DNA of 64,000 nt. Source: Streptomyces sp. NBC_01288 (GTDB lineage: Bacteria > Actinomycetota > Actinomycetes > Streptomycetales > Streptomycetaceae). Below the pieces are notes generated by a model. The model was not told the DNA's origin, did no database searches, and saw only the letters and a program-made list of their open reading frames with translations. The DNA lies in contig NZ_CP108427.1 in NCBI RefSeq assembly GCF_035982055.1, positions 8,617,001-8,681,000 of the forward strand, in the 5' to 3' direction. The stretch's first letter is position 1. Each line of letters begins with the position of its first letter. Of this stretch, positions 7,098 through 60,788 are shown piece by piece. Position numbers and translations under genes: made by a program.

Positions 7098-7590
7098 AGC
7101 GCCTCGCGGACTGTGCGGCGTCGGCCCTTCCGATACAGCCCGTGCCGGCGCCTGGGCACCGGCATGGGAGTCCGGCCGGCGCTGTCGCTGCTGGTTCCTG
7201 CCTTGTCATCCGCGGCACATCTTCAGATCGCCGTGGTGGGATCGGTTGGGCTGTCGGCGCGTCGCGGACCTTGTGGTGCCGGTCCTCCGCGTGCGTCGGT
7301 ATCTGGAGCCCGTGCCGGCGTCTGGACACCGGCATGGGAGTCCGGTCGGCGCTGTCGCCGCTGGTTCCTGCCTCGTCATCCGCGGCACATCTTCAGATCG
7401 CCCTGGCGGGACCGGGCGGGCCGTCGGCGCATTGCGGGCCTTGTGGCGCCGGTCCTCCCGGTGCGCCGGTACCCGCAGCCCGCCCCGGCGGCCGGACACC
7501 GGCACGGGAGTCCGCCCGGCGCTGTTGCCGCCCGTCCCCGCCCCGTCACCCGCAGGACACCCTCTGATCGCCCCGGAGCCGCCCCGCGGA
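7098..7590 (+). repeat. Degenerate 170-bp tandem repeat, about three copies
   Basis: Anchors such as the GCCCGTGCCGGCG block recur at 7138, 7308 and (diverged) 7478, an exact 170-bp period. The first two copies also share GCGGCACATCTTCAGATCGC word for word (around 7210 and 7380). A trace of a further copy end is visible just upstream near 7068-7100. Copies 1 and 2 each contain a small hairpin TGCCGG-N10-CCGGCA. A period of 170 is not a multiple of 3, so reading frames shift in each copy and this is not a repeat protein. Together with the 24-bp array it fills most of the 820-bp apt-relA gap. Confidence 0.85.
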
Positions 7591-12544: not shown

Positions 12545-12723
12545 CGGATTCTCTCCTCATGCGTCTCGTACGTCGACTGGGACGCGTGCGTCTTGTGAGC
12601 CGACCGCCTGCGTGTGCCCCGTACCGTATATGGGTTCGCTGAGGATTCGGCAGCGCCGGTAGGCTCTGACCACTGACGCAGGGATCCTTATCCCCACCCG
12701 TATCGACACAACGAAGGACGATC

Positions 12724-13434
12724 GTGCTCATTGCCGGGTTCCCCGCCGGGGCCTGGGGGACGAACTGTTATCTCGTCGCCCCCGCCGCCGGTGAGGAGTG
12801 CGTGATCATCGACCCGGGCCATCAGGCCGCCCAGGGAGTCGAGGAAGCGCTCAGGAAGCATCGGCTCAAGCCCGTCGCGGTCGTCCTCACCCATGGCCAC
12901 ATCGACCATGTGGCCTCGGTCGTCCCGGTGTGCGGCGCGCACGACGTGCCGGCCTGGATCCACCCCGAGGACCGGTACATGATGAGCGACCCCGAGAAGG
13001 CGCTCGGCCGCTCGATCGGGATGCCGCTGATGGGCGAGCTGACCGTGGGGGAGCCGGACGACGTCAAGGAGCTGACCGACGGCGCACGGCTCGCGCTCGC
13101 GGGACTGGAGTTCTCGGTCGCGCACGCGCCGGGCCATACGAAGGGGTCGGTGACCTTCCAGATGCCCGAGACCACGGACATCCCGTCCGTGTTCTTCTCC
13201 GGGGATCTGCTCTTCGCCGGCTCCATCGGACGCACCGACCTGCCCGGCGGCTCCCACGCCGAGATCCTCGACTCGCTGGCCCGTGTGTGCCTGCCGCTCG
13301 ACGACTCGACCGTGGTGCTGTCCGGCCACGGCCCCCAGACGACCATCGGCCAGGAGCGCGCCACCAACCCGTACCTGCGGGAGGTGGCCTCCGGCGGCCA
13401 GGGAGCCCAGGACGCTCCCCGACGAGGAATGTGA
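12724..13434 (+). CDS. Metallo-beta-lactamase-fold hydrolase (glyoxalase II-like)
   Basis: The 236-aa product has the THGHIDH metal-binding motif (about residues 56-62), a later His in AHAPGHTKGS, an Asp in FFSGDLLF and a final His in VVLSGHGPQT. This is the complete dinuclear metal set of the glyoxalase II/RNase-like MBL group. The GTG at 12724 has GAAGGA about 6 bases before it. It lies 12 bp upstream of hisS, so the two are probably co-transcribed. The substrate is unknown; hydroxyacylglutathione is unlikely to be native because actinomycetes use mycothiol. Confidence 0.9.
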   Translation: MLIAGFPAGAWGTNCYLVAPAAGEECVIIDPGHQAAQGVEEALRKHRLKPVAVVLTHGHIDHVASVVPVCGAHDVPAWIHPEDRYMMSDPEKALGRSIGMPLMGELTVGEPDDVKELTDGARLALAGLEFSVAHAPGHTKGSVTFQMPETTDIPSVFFSGDLLFAGSIGRTDLPGGSHAEILDSLARVCLPLDDSTVVLSGHGPQTTIGQERATNPYLREVASGGQGAQDAPRRGM

Positions 13435-21010: not shown

Positions 21011-21625
21011 GTGGCGAATCAGCCCCGCCCCAAGGTCAAGAAGTCGCGTGCCCTCGGCATCGCGCTGACCCCGAAGGCCGTCAAGTACTTCGAGGCCCGT
21101 CCCTACCCGCCGGGTGAGCACGGTCGTGGCCGCAAGCAGAACTCGGACTACAAGGTCCGTCTGCTGGAGAAGCAGCGTCTGCGCGCGCAGTACGACGTGT
21201 CCGAGCGCCAGCTCGTCCGCGCCTACGAGCGTGCCGCCAAGACGCAGGGCAAGACCGGTGAGGCCCTGGTCATCGAGCTGGAGCGTCGTCTCGACGCCCT
21301 GGTTCTGCGTTCGGGCATCGCCCGCACGATCTACCAGGCCCGCCAGATGGTCGTCCACGGCCACATCGAGGTCAACGGCCAGAAGGTCGACAAGCCGTCC
21401 TTCCGCGTCAAGCCCGACGACGTCGTCATGGTCCGCGAGCGCAGCCGCAGCAAGACGCTGTTCGAGGTCTCCCGCGCCGGTGGCTTCGCCCCCGACGGTG
21501 AGACCCCGCGCTACCTCCAGGTGAACCTCGGCGCCCTGGCGTTCCGCCTGGACCGCGAGCCGAACCGCAAGGAGATCCCGGTGATCTGCGACGAGCAGCT
21601 CGTCGTCGAGTACTACGCCCGCTGA
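21011..21625 (+). CDS. rpsD: 30S ribosomal protein S4
   Basis: Primary 16S rRNA-binding protein of the small subunit. The 204-aa product has the N-terminal S4 region and the S4 RNA-binding domain ([20 protein letters not shown] and [11 protein letters not shown]). The N-terminal region has no cysteines, so this is the zinc-independent form. It stands alone rather than in the alpha operon with rpoA, the usual arrangement in Streptomyces. The GTG start has strong AAGGAA spacing. A hairpin at 21660-21702 follows. Confidence 0.97.
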
Positions 21626-21656: not shown

Positions 21657-23828
21657 TCAGCCCGCCGTCTCCCCGCCCTTCCGGGTGGGCGAGGCGGCGG
21701 GCTTTCGCATGTCCACGCTCACCGTCGCGGGCCGCACAGGCCCGCGCGGCACCGGCACCGCGTCGAGCGACCGCTCCTGCCCCAACGCCCGCGCCACGGC
21801 CGCCTCCCGGCCCAGTAGCGCCCCTTCCCGTGCGCACTCCGCGTACCGCTCGTCGCCGAGGCGCTCGCGGGCCATCGCCTCGCACAGCTCGTGCGGCGCG
21901 TTGTAGTACGCCGAACCGAACAGCGGCAGCCCCACCGACGGCCACATCCCGCCCGCCGCGCCCTGCAACAGTGCGGCCTCGGCGGCATCGCCCTCCGCCA
22001 CCGTGACGAGAGCCAGCAATTCGACCGCGAGGACCGAGCCGAGCAGATCGCGGAAGCCGTGGGCGCTGCCCAGGCAGTCCGCCAACAGGTCGCGCGCAAG
22101 CGGGAGTTGGCCGTCGCTCCAGGCGACGTAGGCCAGGACGTACAGCGCGTACGCCCGGGTCCAGCGCTCACCGTGGTCCTCGCACACGCGGCGGACGTCC
22201 TCGCACAGCTTCACCGCGTCCGCCAGGTCGCCCTGGAACGCGCGGGTCATCGCCAGTTCGACCTGGCCCATCAGTACGTTGCTGTTGAGCTCGCCGATCT
22301 GCTGATAGCGGTCGAGCGCCGAGCGCAGCAGGGTCTCCGCGCGCGGCATGTCGTCCGTGACCAACGCCAGGCAGCCGGTGCGGTGTTCGGCGTACGCGAC
22401 CGCCGTGGGGTTCGCGGCCTCGTCCGCCTCCTCGCGGCACTCCTGGAGCGCGGCCAGCGCGGGCACGGTGTCGCCCTGGAGGATCGCGACGTAGCCGAGC
22501 ACCCAGAGGGCCTTCAGGCGGGACTGGTCGTTCGCCGTGTCCTCGGCGTCCAGTTGCACGGCCTGCTCCAGCCAGTGCCGGCCTTCCGCGAGGCGCCCGC
22601 AGCCCGCCCAGTAGAACCACAGGGAGCCCGCGAGGTACTGGCCCAGGTGCGTCTCGTCCGGCTCGGTCAGGCAGTACTCCAGGGCGCCGCGCAGATTCGG
22701 CAACTCCGCCTCGACCCGCGCGGCGACCTCACCCTGGCGCGGCGAGAACCAGTCCAGCTCGCACCAGGTGGCCAGGCCCAGGTACCAGTCGCGGTGTCTG
22801 CGCCGCAGCCGGGCCGCGTCACCCGTCGCCTCCAGCCAGTCGGCGCCGTAGGCCCGGATCGTGTCGAGCATCCGGTAGCGCACGCCCGTCGCCGTCTCCT
22901 CACGAACCACCACGGACTGCGCGAGCAGCTCCGACAGCACGTCGAGGACGTCGTCCGAATGCAGTCCGTCGCCGCCGCACACGTACTCGGCTGCCTCCAG
23001 ATCAAAGCGCCCGGCGAACACCGACAGCCGCGCCCACAGCAACCGCTCCTCGGGCGTGCACAGTTCATGGCTCCAGCCGATCGCCGTCCGCAGCGTCTGG
23101 TGCCGAGGTAACGCGTCCCTGCGCCCGCCGGCCAGCAGCCGGAACCGGTCGTCGAACCGCGCCAGCAACTCCCCGGGCGACAACGCCCGCAACCGCCCCG
23201 CCGCCAGCTCGACGGCGAGGGGGATCCCGTCGAGCCGTCGGCACAACTCCCGTACGTCCGGATCGTCTTCGCCGAGGGCGACCCCTTGCTGCGCGGCCCG
23301 GTCGGCGAACAGCTCCACCGCCTCGTCCTCGCCCAACGGCGCGACCGCGACCACCCGTTCACCCGCCAGCTCCAACGGCCGCCGCCCCACCGCGAGCACC
23401 CGCAGCCCCGGCACCCGCCCCAGCAACTCGGCCACCAGCTCGGCACACACCTCCACCAGATGCTCGAACCCGTCCAGCATCAACAGAAGTTGACGATCCG
23501 TCAGATGTGAGAACAGCGCCTCACGCGGCAACCGCGCGGTGTGATCCGTCAGCCCCAGCGCCTCTACGACCGCGAAGTCCACGAGTTCCGGGTCGCGCAC
23601 CGCAGCCAGCTCCACCCGCCACACCCCGTCCGAGGGCGCGGAGAGGGCCGCCGCGTGGGCCGCGAGCCGGGACTTGCCGACCCCGCCGGGACCGGTCACC
23701 GTGACCAGGCGCGAGGCGTCGAGTGCCCGGGCCAGCTCGGTGAGTTCGGCCGAGCGGCCCACGAACCGGTCGGGTTCGAGGGGCAGATTGCCGTCCGCGG
23801 TGGCGTCGCCGCCATGGGAAGCTCGCAT
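21657..23828 (-). CDS. AfsR-like NTPase/TPR regulator without recognisable DNA-binding domain; TTA codon
   Basis: The 723-aa protein has an NTPase domain with Walker A GPGGVGKS at residues 46-53, LLLMLDGFEHL as the Walker B region and a GIPLAVELAAGRLR (GLPL-like) motif. Helical winged regions and about ten TPR-like helices follow to the end. This is the STAND architecture of AfsR/LAL-type regulators. I see neither an N-terminal SARP nor a C-terminal LuxR helix-turn-helix; the C-terminus is a short basic tail. Codon 240 (bases 23109-23111) is TTA, the rare leucine codon read by the developmentally controlled bldA tRNA. No clear Shine-Dalgarno precedes the ATG at 23828, and a palindrome lies 15 bases upstream. 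Confidence 0.85.
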   Translation of the reverse strand: MRASHGGDATADGNLPLEPDRFVGRSAELTELARALDASRLVTVTGPGGVGKSRLAAHAAALSAPSDGVWRVELAAVRDPELVDFAVVEALGLTDHTARLPREALFSHLTDRQLLLMLDGFEHLVEVCAELVAELLGRVPGLRVLAVGRRPLELAGERVVAVAPLGEDEAVELFADRAAQQGVALGEDDPDVRELCRRLDGIPLAVELAAGRLRALSPGELLARFDDRFRLLAGGRRDALPRHQTLRTAIGWSHELCTPEERLLWARLSVFAGRFDLEAAEYVCGGDGLHSDDVLDVLSELLAQSVVVREETATGVRYRMLDTIRAYGADWLEATGDAARLRRRHRDWYLGLATWCELDWFSPRQGEVAARVEAELPNLRGALEYCLTEPDETHLGQYLAGSLWFYWAGCGRLAEGRHWLEQAVQLDAEDTANDQSRLKALWVLGYVAILQGDTVPALAALQECREEADEAANPTAVAYAEHRTGCLALVTDDMPRAETLLRSALDRYQQIGELNSNVLMGQVELAMTRAFQGDLADAVKLCEDVRRVCEDHGERWTRAYALYVLAYVAWSDGQLPLARDLLADCLGSAHGFRDLLGSVLAVELLALVTVAEGDAAEAALLQGAAGGMWPSVGLPLFGSAYYNAPHELCEAMARERLGDERYAECAREGALLGREAAVARALGQERSLDAVPVPRGPVRPATVSVDMRKPAASPTRKGGETAG
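21660..21702. terminator. Hairpin terminator between rpsD and the convergent regulator gene
   Basis: Arms 21660-21677 and 21684-21702 (GCCCGCCGTCTCCCCGCC with GGTGGGCGAGGCGGCGGGC) form a long GC stem with one or two wobble or unpaired bases. It overlaps the last codons of the minus-strand gene. Confidence 0.6.
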
Positions 23829-23842
23829 GGAACACGGAGCGT

Positions 23843-23859
23843 ACTGAACCGTATTCAGT
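23843..23859. promoter_or_regulatory. Palindrome upstream of AfsR-like gene
   Basis: ACTGAA-N5-TTCAGT, 15 bases upstream of the minus-strand ATG at 23828. Flanking GTAC words at both ends lengthen the partial symmetry. Its position suggests an operator over the promoter or start of the regulator gene. Confidence 0.45.
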
Positions 23860-23921
23860 CCGTACAATCGCTTCGCGCAACTCCACCGTGCGCGGGGCGG
23901 AAATGCGGTACGGAGCGCCAC

Positions 23922-24033: not shown

Positions 24034-24480
24034 GTGTCCGGTGGAGAGGTGGCCGGGATCCTCGTGGCCGTCTTCTGGGCGATCCTGGTCTCGTTCCTCG
24101 CCGTCGCACTGGTGAGGCTGGCCCAGACGCTCAAGGCGACCACCAAGCTGGTCGCGGACGTGACCGACCAGGCCGTGCCGCTGCTGGCCGACGCCTCCGC
24201 GGCGGTGCGCTCCGCGCAGACCCAGATCGACCGGGTCGACGCGATCGCCTCCGACGTCCAGGAAGTCACCTCGAACGCCTCCGCACTGTCCACCACCGTC
24301 GCCTCCACCTTCGGCGGGCCCCTCGTGAAGGTCGCGGCCTTCGGCTACGGCGTCCGCCGGGCCCTGGGCGGCCGCCGCGAGGACGTGCCCGCGCCGTCCG
24401 GGGCGTCCCGTCGTACGGTGATCGTGGGCCGTACCGTCCCGGCCGGACGGCGGGGCAAGCGCACCCGGAAGAAGGACTGA
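24034..24480 (+). CDS. DUF948 membrane protein
   Basis: The 148-aa product has one N-terminal membrane helix (about 6-28, EVAGILVAVFWAILVSFLAVALV). A helical, probably coiled-coil stretch follows (about 29-90, with a heptad-like pattern of Val, Leu and Ala), and then a basic tail ending RRGKRTRKKD. This is the DUF948 pattern, whose function is unknown. The GTG at 24034 follows a duplicated promoter-like segment. The next small gene starts 7 bp after its stop and alaS follows that, a conserved trio in streptomycetes. Confidence 0.8.
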   Translation: MSGGEVAGILVAVFWAILVSFLAVALVRLAQTLKATTKLVADVTDQAVPLLADASAAVRSAQTQIDRVDAIASDVQEVTSNASALSTTVASTFGGPLVKVAAFGYGVRRALGGRREDVPAPSGASRRTVIVGRTVPAGRRGKRTRKKD

Positions 24481-30699: not shown

Positions 30700-31540
30700 T
30701 GGTGCGGCCGGCTGCTTGCTGACCCTGGGGCGACGCGGGCAGGGCGGGCTGGACGGGGTTGGCCGGGTGCTTACGCGGAGAGCGTTGGGCGGCTACTGGC
30801 CCTGACCTGGCAGTGCGGGGGAGTAGGTGTCGGTGGGCTGTTGTCGCGGGCCTGGTGGGTGGGCGACAGGGGGCTGACCGGCCGTCGGCCCTGAGTCCGC
30901 GACGAGGGTGAGAGTCCGCCGTTCGCCTGTTGGACCCGTCCTGGTAGGGCGGTGAGGTGTGCGCTGGCCAGCTCTTGGCCTTGGCCTGGCGGGGCTGCTG
31001 AGAACGCGCTGGTTGACCGTGGCCCCGGAGTCAGTTGGTCGGATGCAGACACTTCGGCCGACTCATGGCCTCGCCCGGCAGGGTTGTGGAGAAAACGCCG
31101 ACAGACCGCCGACCCGGGCCCGGCAGGGCAGGCGAGTGAGTGTCAGCCGTCTCTGGATCTCGACCCGGTAGGGCTGCCGAGCAGGTGCAGGCGGACAGCC
31201 GACCCCGACCCGGGTAGGGCGCGCAGGCGAGCGGCGGCCGCCTCCTGCCCCCGCCCTGGCATGGCCCCTCAAGGAGCCGCTGCACGTCCGCTCATCCTGG
31301 CCCGGCAGGGCAGGCGAGTGAGTGTCAGCCGTCTCTGGACCTCGACCCGGTAGGGCTGTCGAACAGGCTCAGGCGGACAGCCGACCCCGACCCGGGTAGG
31401 GCGCGCAGGCGAGCGGCGGCCGCCTCCTGCCCCCGCCCTGGCAAGGCTCCCCAAGAAGCCGCCGCTCGACCGCTCGCCCGGCCCCCGCAAGGCGGCCGAG
31501 CGCCGCGGCGGCCGACTCCTGACCCTGGCCTGGAACAGCG
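30700..31540 (+). repeat. Degenerate ~45-bp tandem repeat array with a 182-bp higher-order duplication
   Basis: Between aroE (stop 30672) and aroC (start 31732) no credible gene is present. A motif of the type CCYGGYAGGGC recurs about every 45 bases, with anchors near 30806, 30851, 30940, 30985, 31075, 31119, 31164, 31209, 31255, 31301, 31346, 31391, 31437 and 31483. Four units form a block that is duplicated at 182-bp distance: 31119-31266 and 31301-31448 differ by only about six bases by eye. Neither 45-46 nor 182 keeps a stable reading frame, which argues against a repeat protein. The last 190 bases (31541-31731) hold the aroC promoter region, in which I see no clear motif. Confidence 0.85.
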
Positions 31541-54973: not shown

Positions 54974-55504
54974 GTGACGCCACGGCGGATCAGTCGTGAT
55001 CAAGTGCTGGACGTGACATGGGAGTTGGCGACCCGGAAGGGGCTGGCGGCCGTCACGATGCGGGCCGTCGCGCAGGAGCTCGACGTGAACCCGATGACGC
55101 TCTACCGGCATGTCGGCGACAAGCAGGGACTCCTCGACGGCCTCGTGGAGCGGCTGCTGCTGGAGATCGAGGTGCCCGGTCCCGGGCTCGACTGGCGTGA
55201 GCAACTGCGCCTGCTCGCCCGCAGCATGCGGGCCACGGCCCGGCGCCACCCCGACCTGTTCCTGCTGCTCTTCCAGCGGCCGGCGGTCACACCGGGGGCC
55301 GTCGGGCCTCGGAACGCGGTCTACGGTGCCCTACGCGCCGCCGGTCTCCAGGAGGAGCGGATTCCGCGGGCCGAGCGGCTGCTGTCCACGTTCATGCTCG
55401 GGTTCGCCGCCTCGGAGGCCGGGGGGCGGTTCCGGGAGAGCGACCCGGACGCGGACATGGCTTTCGCCGAAGACCTCATCGTCCGGCTCCTCGCCGAGGG
55501 CTAG
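54974..55504 (+). CDS. TetR family transcriptional regulator
   Basis: The 176-aa product has an N-terminal helix-turn-helix (ISRDQVLDVTWELATRKGLA and VAQELDVNPMTLYRHVGDKQ) and a helical ligand domain. The GTG at 54974 has GGGAGGA 6 bases upstream. It is divergent from the ABC exporter genes over 77 bp containing a strong palindrome, so it most likely represses them and itself until a ligand binds. Confidence 0.93.
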   Translation: MTPRRISRDQVLDVTWELATRKGLAAVTMRAVAQELDVNPMTLYRHVGDKQGLLDGLVERLLLEIEVPGPGLDWREQLRLLARSMRATARRHPDLFLLLFQRPAVTPGAVGPRNAVYGALRAAGLQEERIPRAERLLSTFMLGFAASEAGGRFRESDPDADMAFAEDLIVRLLAEG

Positions 55505-55565
55505 CGGGGCGTGTGCGTACGGCGGGCTGCGGTCGTTGTCAGTCGGGTTTGGTAAGAATGCAAGG

Positions 55566-57716
55566 GTGAGCAGCGCTGATGGGGAACGGGACGGTGGGGC
55601 GGAGGGTGCGCCGCCTGAGCAGCTTGCGCTGATTCGGGAGAGTGTGCGGCAGGCGAAGGGGCCGAAGGCCAAGCCGCGGACGTGGCGGGGGGCCGCGTTG
55701 GCCAAGGAGTTGCCCGTCGCGCGGGTGCTTGTCGACAAGGGGGTGCTGCATCTTGATCGGTACTTCGACTATGCGGTGCCGGAGGAGCTGGACGCCGACG
55801 CGCAGCCCGGGGTGCGGGTTCGGGTGCGGTTCGGGGCCGGGCGGCATCGGGTGCGGGACGGGCGGCGCGAGGGCGGGGGGCTGATCGACGGGTTTCTTGT
55901 CGAGCGGCTGGCCGAGTCCGACTACTCCGGGCCGCTTGCCGCGCTGGCGCAGGTCGTGTCGCCCGAGCCGGTGCTGAGTGAAGAGCTGTTGGGGCTCGCT
56001 CGGGCCGTTGCCGATCGGTATGCCGGGAGCCTTGCCGATGTGCTGCAACTCGCCGTGCCGCCGCGTAGTGCTCGCGCCGAGCAGAAGGCGTCGCCGGCGC
56101 CGTTGCCGCCGCCCGAGGTGCCCGAGGTGGGGTCCTGGGCGCGGTACGAGCGGGGGGCCGGGTTTCTGGAGGCGCTTGCCTCGGGGGGTGCGCCGCGGGC
56201 TGTGTGGAACACGCTGCCGGGGCCCGAGTGGAGCGAGGAGATCGCTCGGGCCGTCGCCGCGACGCTAGCCTCCGGGCGCGGGGCGCTCGTCGTCGTACCG
56301 GACGGGCGGGCCGCCGGGCGGGTCGACGCCGCGTTGACCGCACTGTTGGGGGAGGGGCGGCATGCGCTGCTCACCGCCGATGCCGGGCCCGAGAAGCGGT
56401 ATCGGCAGTGGCTGGCCGTGCGGCGGGGGTCCGTGCGCGCGGTCGTCGGGACGCGGGCCGCGATGTTCGCGCCGGTGCAGGATCTGGGGCTTGTCGCGAT
56501 CTGGGACGACGGGGACGGGAGTCACAGCGAGCCGCACGCGCCGCAGCCGCATGCGCGGGATGTGCTGCTGTTGCGGGCCGCGTTGGACAAGTGCGGTTTC
56601 TTGTTGGGGAGTTGGAGTTGCACGGTGGAGGCCGCGCAGCTCGTGGAGAGCGGGTGGGCGCGGCCGTTGGTCGCGTCGCGGGAGCAGGTGCGGGGGGCCG
56701 CGCCGCTCGTACGGACCGTGGGGGACGGGGACTTGGCGCGGGACGAGGCGGCTCGGGCCGCGCGGTTGCCTACGTTGGCTTGGCAGGCGGTGAGAGAAGG
56801 GCTGAAGCATGGGCCCGTGCTGGTGCAGGTGCCTCGGCGGGGGTATGTGCCGCGGATGGCGTGTGCTCAGTGTCGGGCCGCCGCGCGGTGCCGGCACTGT
56901 GCGGGGCCGTTGGAGGGGCAGGACGGGGGCGTGCTGCGGTGTGGGTGGTGCGGGGTCGAGGAGAGCTCCTGGCACTGTCCCGAGTGCGGGGGGTTCCGGT
57001 TGCGGGCTCAGGTGGTGGGCGCGCGGCGGACCGCGGAGGAGTTGGGTCGGGCGTTTCCTGCGGTGCCGGTGCGGACGTCCGGGCGGGAGCAGGTGCTTGA
57101 CACGGTGCCGGGGACGCCTGCGTTGGTCGTGAGTACGCCGGGGGCCGAGCCGGTTGCCGACGGGGGGTATGCGGCGGCGTTGTTGCTGGACGGGTGGGCG
57201 ATGCTGGGGCGGCCTGATCTGCGGGCCGGGGAGGACGCTTTGCGGCGGTGGATCGCGGCGAGTTCGTTGGTGCGGCCGCAGGGGGGTGGGGGGACTGTGG
57301 TTGTGGTGGCGGAACCTACCTTGCGGCCTGTGCAGGCGTTGGTGCGGTGGGATCCCGTTGGGCATGCGGTGCGGGAGCTTGCGGAGCGGGGGGAGTTGGG
57401 GTTTCCGCCGGTTTCTCGGATGGCCGCGGTGGCGGGGGTCGCGGGGGCTGTCGCGGAGTTTCTTGCCGCTGCTGAACTGCCTTCTGATGCCGAGGTGTTG
57501 GGGCCTGTGGCGGTGCCGGTTGTTTTGGGTGGGGGGGCAGCTCGGCGGGTGGGGGGGCCGGCTGTGGGGGAGGAGTGGGTGCGGGCGTTGATTCGGGTGC
57601 GGCCGGGGAGCGGGGGGGCGTTGGCTGCGGCGTTGAAGGCTGCGCAGGCTGCTCGGATGGCTCGGGGTGGGGGGGATGTGGTGCGGGTGCGGGTTGATCC
57701 GCCGGATATTGGGTGA
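55566..57716 (+). CDS. priA: Primosomal protein N' (PriA), helicase motifs degenerate
   Basis: A replication-restart protein that recognises branched DNA. The 716-aa product has the N-terminal DNA-binding domain (ARVLVDKGVLHLDRYFDYAV) and a complete eight-Cys zinc region (CAQC, CRHC, CGWC, CPEC; about residues 432-474). Where active PriA has a Walker A, this sequence reads ALASGGAPRAVWNTLPG, without GKT/S. The DEEH box is replaced by IWDDGDGSHSEP. This is the known actinobacterial form, probably unable to hydrolyse ATP. A GTG 55566 start close behind TAAGAAT suggests a leaderless mRNA. The 3' third is very rich in G-runs. Confidence 0.93.
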   Translation: MSSADGERDGGAEGAPPEQLALIRESVRQAKGPKAKPRTWRGAALAKELPVARVLVDKGVLHLDRYFDYAVPEELDADAQPGVRVRVRFGAGRHRVRDGRREGGGLIDGFLVERLAESDYSGPLAALAQVVSPEPVLSEELLGLARAVADRYAGSLADVLQLAVPPRSARAEQKASPAPLPPPEVPEVGSWARYERGAGFLEALASGGAPRAVWNTLPGPEWSEEIARAVAATLASGRGALVVVPDGRAAGRVDAALTALLGEGRHALLTADAGPEKRYRQWLAVRRGSVRAVVGTRAAMFAPVQDLGLVAIWDDGDGSHSEPHAPQPHARDVLLLRAALDKCGFLLGSWSCTVEAAQLVESGWARPLVASREQVRGAAPLVRTVGDGDLARDEAARAARLPTLAWQAVREGLKHGPVLVQVPRRGYVPRMACAQCRAAARCRHCAGPLEGQDGGVLRCGWCGVEESSWHCPECGGFRLRAQVVGARRTAEELGRAFPAVPVRTSGREQVLDTVPGTPALVVSTPGAEPVADGGYAAALLLDGWAMLGRPDLRAGEDALRRWIAASSLVRPQGGGGTVVVVAEPTLRPVQALVRWDPVGHAVRELAERGELGFPPVSRMAAVAGVAGAVAEFLAAAELPSDAEVLGPVAVPVVLGGGAARRVGGPAVGEEWVRALIRVRPGSGGALAAALKAAQAARMARGGGDVVRVRVDPPDIG

Positions 57717-59938: not shown

Positions 59939-60344
59939 GCCTTGGGCGCTCTTGGACCCCGCGTGCTTCGGCGCTTCGGGACCCCGGTACTTCGGGACCC
60001 TTGGCACCCCGGGGTCTTGGGCGCTCCGGGCACCGCAGGATCCTCGGCACTCTGGCATCTTGGGCGCTCCGGGGCCTCTGGCGCCCCGGGCACCGCAGAA
60101 CCCTCTACACCCTGGTATCTCGGGCACTCCGGGAGCCCAGGTACTCCTGACGCGCTGAGCCCTCCGGGGCCCCTGGCACCGGAGGGCCTTCCGCACCCCG
60201 GGACCCCTGGCACCCCTGGGCACTACAGGGTCTTCGGCACCCCGGCACCCCGGCACCCCGGAACCCCGGCACCCAGGGCGCCGCAGGGCCTTCGGTACCC
60301 CATCACCCGGGGTACCCCCAGCAGCCCGGGATCGCTGGTACCCC
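59939..60344 (+). repeat. Degenerate 9-bp-periodic sequence after fmt
   Basis: Words like GGCACCCCG, GGGCGCTCC and GGAACCCCG recur with a 9-bp rhythm for about 400 bases, becoming more regular toward the exact arrays at 60345. No start codon with ribosome-binding site and homologous product is visible on either strand. Confidence 0.75.
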
Positions 60345-60443
60345 GGAACCCCTGGAACCCCTGGAACCCCTGGAACCCCTGGAACCCCTGGAACCCCTGG
60401 AACCCCTGGAACCCCTGGAACCCCTGGAACCCCTGGAACCCCT
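60345..60443 (+). repeat. 9-bp microsatellite, 11 exact copies
   Basis: GGAACCCCT repeated 11 times without a change. Confidence 0.95.
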
Positions 60444-60547
60444 GGGCCCCTGGGCCCCTGGGCCCCTGGGCCCCTGGGCCCCTGGGCCCCTGGGCCCCTG
60501 GACCCCTGGAACCCCGGAACCCCGGAACCCCGGAACCCCGGAACCCC
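60444..60547 (+). repeat. 8-bp microsatellites (7 x GGGCCCCT, 1 variant, 5 x GGAACCCC)
   Basis: Seven exact copies of GGGCCCCT (60444-60499), one GGACCCCT, then five GGAACCCC (60508-60547). The unit length changes from 9 to 8 at 60444, so the array is a mosaic of separate expansions. The following 230 bases to rsmB stay C-rich and degenerate. Confidence 0.95.
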
Positions 60548-60788
60548 GGGAGTCCTGGCACCCCGGCACTTCGGGCACCCCGGAACCCAGGGACCCCCTA
60601 GCACCCCTGGCCCCCCGGAACCCGCCGCCTCCCCGGGACTTCCAGGCCCCCGGGACCCGCCCCATCCCCAGGACCTCCGGGCCCCCCGCCCCCCAGCACC
60701 CCCACGCGCCCGACGTCCCGCGCACAGGCACCCCGGTGCGACGTACCCTGGGCACACATCTCAGCCAGAAATCCGGAGCACCTTTTTC

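Follow-up and report, generated by a model that had tools for sequence, protein, structure and literature searches.

The question raised by this locus was whether a single TTA codon places a Streptomyces gene under the control of bldA, the gene for tRNA-Leu(UAA). The locus lies in a 64,000-nucleotide stretch of the Streptomyces sp. NBC_01288 chromosome (hereafter the window), which spans 8.617-8.681 Mb in a genome assembled as one contig of 10.56 Mb. An earlier note on this DNA had picked out the codon by eye as the only in-frame TTA of the window and had proposed its host gene, read as encoding an AfsR-like STAND/TPR regulator, as a candidate bldA target. Numbering from the start codon (ATG, 23826-23828, minus strand) makes the codon Leu240, in the context GAC GCG TTA CCT CGG; it is one of 107 leucine codons in the gene (60 CTG, 27 CTC, 16 TTG, 2 CTT, 1 CTA and 1 TTA). 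The coordinates of the features discussed below are collected in Table 1.

Table 1. Features of the TTA-bearing locus, in window positions
Feature	Coordinates	Strand	Basis
TTA codon (Leu240), in the linker (residues ~233-252) that joins the predicted NTPase core to the following helical domain	23109..23111	-	Codon read from sequence; linker from AlphaFold
723-aa STAND-type NTPase with TPR repeats at its C-terminus	21657..23828	-	Pfam, AlphaFold model, Foldseek
Promoter-like block (TTGTAC-18 nt-TACGCT) that stops 9 nt short of the ATG	23838..23867	-	Orthologue upstream conservation
rpsD (presumed), 30S ribosomal protein S4; tail-to-tail neighbor and orthology marker	21011..21625	+	Translation
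Gene for a DUF948 protein; divergent neighbor	24034..24480	+	PF06103, E 9.8e-12

We counted the TTA codons in the coding sequences of the window computationally, using a custom codon-usage script as the gene caller (84% coverage), and found that only one of the 55 called genes, the STAND/TPR gene, contained a TTA. Because the script overlooks priA and genes of low GC content, the background TTA rate that it gives is a lower estimate. Five uncalled gaps longer than 350 nt were also searched, and there was no TTA in any of their five coding-like frames, the missed priA frame included. The observation that Leu240 is the sole in-frame TTA of the window was thereby borne out. A list of all TTA-containing frames of at least 60 codons brought up one further coding-like frame, 12670-13434 on the plus strand, with a TTA at 12688; this TTA lies upstream of the first ATG, GTG or TTG (a GTG at 12724) and is thus non-coding. 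The priA-like gene that the codon-usage caller missed (55098-57716, plus strand) had a Pfam match limited to the PriA 3' DNA-binding domain.

To judge how much weight a lone TTA deserves, we compared the window with samples of the same chromosome. In 30 stretches of 20 kb, 9 of the 544 called genes contained a TTA, and the expectation for the window was about 0.9 TTA genes with a probability of 0.60 of at least one. At the rate found in this genome's called genes, those of the window among them (10 TTA per 18,777 leucine codons), a gene with 107 leucine codons has a 5.5% chance of carrying one or more. One TTA is what a stretch of 64 kb should hold by chance, and this one therefore received no special weight. 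On this chromosome chance gives one TTA gene per ~60-70 kb; a lone TTA is therefore hardly informative when its host is a plausible regulator, and it is conservation among orthologues that quickly parts incidental codons from selected ones.

The description of the protein as an AfsR-like STAND/TPR regulator held for the STAND/TPR part of its architecture. In the window protein nSTAND1 and TPR_12 scored above the Pfam cut-offs and NB-ARC below, and the P-loop residues G46, G49, G51 and K52 were invariant in 25 sequences. Both a P-loop STAND core and C-terminal helical repeats, by which a STAND NTPase with a TPR sensor is recognized, are therefore present. An AlphaFold model of moderate quality (mean pLDDT 70.5, pTM 0.48) had as its best solved-structure fold match PDB 6mfv, a STAND protein with a TPR sensor, over the NTPase and the helical repeats (Foldseek E 8.4e-9), although the identity was 13% and the TM-score 0.32-0.35. 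Apaf-1 and plant NLR NB-ARC structures were also among the STAND folds to which the model was likened. A search by sequence found no solved-structure relative at E 0.01. In the model, Leu240 lies within the motif DALPRHQTLRTAIGW of the low-confidence linker, and pLDDT is below 50 at residues 227-257 around it. AfsR/SARP regulators consist of an N-terminal winged helix and BTAD, followed by NB-ARC and TPR. The STAND protein shares with them an NB-ARC-like NTPase followed by TPR repeats but has no recognized DNA-binding or BTAD domain; no DNA-binding, BTAD or LuxR domain was detected by Pfam and NCBIfam in the window protein or among the Pfam matches listed for 24-25 orthologues. Because no DNA-binding domain was recognized, the name AfsR-like regulator is unproven and goes beyond the evidence. 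No PADLOC match pointed to a role in anti-phage defense. For the literature look-up we used SCO1504, SCO1506 and SCO1434 as the presumed locus numbers. No mention was found under SCO1504, nor of a Streptomyces STAND/TPR gene with rpsD/alaS, and the main text of a bldA-deletion study (PMC2000904) does not contain SCO1504, SCO1506, SCO1434 or the word 'ATPase'.

We then analyzed codon 240 and the occurrence of TTA in two sets of orthologues. The first comprised 210 loci (130 taken first of 224 matching genomes, plus the best 80 of 404 relatives) and yielded 184 distinct coding sequences after removal of identical or already-seen ones; the second comprised 58 further loci and yielded 41 after the same removal. 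Orthology was supported by the neighboring gene, which we take from its translation to be rpsD in the window and which adjoins the STAND/TPR gene in 127 of the 130 loci. Codon 240 was TTA in just one of the 225 distinct sequences, that of the window's own genome. The first set had CTG in 98 sequences, CTC in 35, CCG in 25, TTG in 8, TTA in 1 and other codons in fewer, with a proline codon of one kind or another in 28 of the 184, and none of the 41 additional sequences had TTA. The earlier note had named orthologues lacking the TTA as an observation that would refute its proposal, and this is what we found even in the closest relatives. Codon 240 was CTG in Streptomyces sp. NRRL F-525 (97% identity), S. 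prunicolor NBRC 13075 (96%) and another relative (94%), and TTG in MBT65, S. hokutonensis and MBT53 (93-94%); a search for further close relatives among 150 relatives found none beyond those already in the set. As the closest relatives have no TTA there, TTA240 looks like a chance substitution rather than an evolved developmental switch.

The uniqueness of the TTA base among 225 sequences is also what a single-base sequencing or assembly error would produce. We regard such an error as extremely improbable, since the genome is a single contig with 99.97% completeness, the change is synonymous, and the third base of the next codon differs too (TTA CCT here, CTG CCC or TTG CCC in the six nearest relatives), a difference that real divergence explains better than error. 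There was likewise no sign of the frame error that had been considered for this site, as the reading frame is intact and aligned across the orthologues.

TTA codons elsewhere in the gene were counted, for each sequence, in its best tblastn segment; these segments ran from 570 codons to full length (median 714). At least one was present in 12 of the 184 sequences of the first set and 5 of the 41 of the second, 17 of 225 in total and mostly at unrelated codons, and the aligned part of the remaining 208 had none. The share of TTA among leucine codons in the 184 orthologues, 12 of 19,739 (0.061%), did not differ from the genome background of 10 of 18,777 (0.053%; Fisher P 0.83), and the number of TTA-bearing orthologues, 12 of 184, matched the background prediction (P 0.32). 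Across the 225 sequences, GC3 was lower in the 17 with a TTA than in the others (0.919 vs 0.936, P 0.006). Four of the 12 TTAs of the first set fell in codons 228-248, a span that holds 3.6% of the leucine codons and was picked afterwards (Fisher P 0.0006), as if TTA were favored in the linker that follows the NTPase core, for example as a translational pause that aids folding. Among the 41 independent orthologues, however, none of six TTAs fell in this span (146 leucine codons there, hence little power), and TTG was hardly raised in it (2.97% vs 2.42%), and a local hotspot of this kind appears highly improbable to us. Upstream TTAs were considered and rejected: the stop-to-stop frame held in-frame TTAs in 29 of the 130 loci, but only 8 were inside the aligned coding part, and in eight upstream sequences that were inspected the TTAs lay ~25-40 codons up, before the conserved ATG and in the promoter region.

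As a control we used adpA, which is established in Streptomyces as a conserved bldA target; the gene that we take to be the adpA of this genome was picked by its DJ-1/PfpI domain, its length and its inter-domain TTA. Of 61 genomes, 60 gave a match, and in the best 30 loci of the genus TTA was found at the same codon in 25 and somewhere in the gene in 28. This recovery at a shared codon indicated that the same method detects a conserved TTA where one exists. In the other five adpA sequences CTG replaces the conserved TTA; two of these have a TTA at codon 137 instead and one at codon 245, and the aligned part of the remaining two is free of TTA. Like the STAND gene, adpA is a Streptomyces gene with a TTA codon that needs tRNA-Leu(UAA) for decoding, but its TTA is kept in most loci whereas TTA240 is private to one genome. 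The passages of PMC4255298 that deal with adpA give a TTA in that gene for all streptomycetes analyzed there. According to an excerpt of PMC10327506, a Streptomyces genome has 51-505 TTA-bearing ORFs (average 177), and most of the TTA codons are poorly conserved. The STAND gene resembles the sporadic TTA ORFs of that excerpt in having a single TTA at a position unconserved between species, and no difference of substance was seen.

The closest clade gave a somewhat different picture. Three of its seven sequences contain a TTA (codons 240, 289 and 100, on separate branches of the small tree), which exceeds the prediction from the family rate (P 0.012, for a clade picked after the data were seen). 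This could mean that the gene came under bldA control on three or more separate occasions within the group formed by S. prunicolor, S. hokutonensis and this strain, with selection acting on a TTA anywhere in the gene rather than on its position. If these gains were adaptive, position-independent gain of TTA would be a route for recruiting genes to bldA control. TTG, however, makes up 11% of the leucine codons in these seven sequences as compared to 2% in the other 218, and since a single transition turns TTG into TTA, we infer that codon bias accounts for much of the excess. The argument is drawn from the clade comparison because the TTG share in the whole set of 225 did not differ significantly between TTA-bearing and other sequences (3.8% vs 2.1%, P 0.27). 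Repeated recruitment to bldA control in this clade seems very unlikely.

The feature that is kept across the STAND family is a promoter-like block upstream, and not the TTA. Of 224 upstream regions from the orthologues (one of the 225 sequences was left out, its flank being too short), 208 had the pattern TTGTACG plus TAC[G/T]CT with an 18-nt spacer, and in 204 of these 208 the next ATG was exactly 9 nt past the block. This genome has one exact copy of the block; with one mismatch allowed there was one other match, as against one for a reversed control pattern, so there was no sign of a regulon. A scan with a strict sigma-70 consensus called no promoter at the block. For S. coelicolor, passages of PMC4895711 report a TANNNT -10 motif at 80.4% of the 3,570 start sites, and leaderless mRNAs from 21.0% of the primary ones; the second hexamer of the block fits this -10 motif, and the first differs from the -35 motif given there. 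We infer that the STAND gene is transcribed from a housekeeping-type promoter, most probably as a leaderless mRNA. An inverted repeat, ACTGAA-N5-TTCAGT, was considered as an operator and rejected, as no more than 33 of 184 upstream regions matched its relaxed pattern; conservation lies in the two outer blocks, which have promoter-like spacing.

A tRNA-Leu(UAA) gene (bldA) was located at about 6.134 Mb of the genome by ARAGORN, applied to 40 loci of 69 tRNA matches. Dependence on bldA is therefore mechanically possible, and the UUA of the STAND/TPR mRNA should use that tRNA. A tRNA-Leu(UAG) was not found among the ten longest Rfam tRNA matches nor by one short pattern, probably through a search miss; CTA is nonetheless in use, at 128 of the 18,777 leucine codons in called genes.

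With the tRNA gene in place, the codon could make the gene a genuine bldA target, the TTA delaying a STAND signaling protein until the bldA tRNA builds up late and having been selected in this lineage. STAND/TPR proteins are plausible signaling proteins, TTA appeared at three different codons in the closest clade, and the excerpt of PMC10327506 reports signal transduction as enriched among TTA-bearing ORFs in 126 of 213 species. Set against these points are the private occurrence of TTA240, the absence of TTA from the aligned part of most orthologues, a TTA rate equal to background, heavy TTG use alongside the clade excess, and the fact that what the orthologues conserve is the promoter-like block. 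We consider a selected delay of this kind unlikely. Taken from these sequence comparisons, TTA240 is very probably a recent, neutral and lineage-specific synonymous change, with at most an incidental dependence on bldA. TTG to TTA would be its simplest origin, in a widespread Streptomyces STAND/TPR gene beside rpsD, although in three of the six nearest relatives codon 240 is CTG, which is two changes away from TTA. Whenever the bldA tRNA is on hand, ribosomes would use it for this codon, and STAND gene expression may therefore show a slight sensitivity to bldA in this strain; despite the lack of conservation, a recent gain of TTA might yet render the protein bldA-dependent here. Nothing found indicates that TTA240 was selected or that it typifies the gene family. 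The proposal of a candidate bldA target was thus sound in that the TTA is real and single and its tRNA gene is present, and it failed in that the codon is unconserved and TTA in the orthologues is no more frequent than background.

Elsewhere in the window, long tandem repeat arrays were observed in three gaps that separate called genes, at 7136-7573 (170-bp unit, 2.6 copies), 31117-31475 (182-bp unit, 2.0 copies) and 60335-60623 (9-bp unit, 34 copies).
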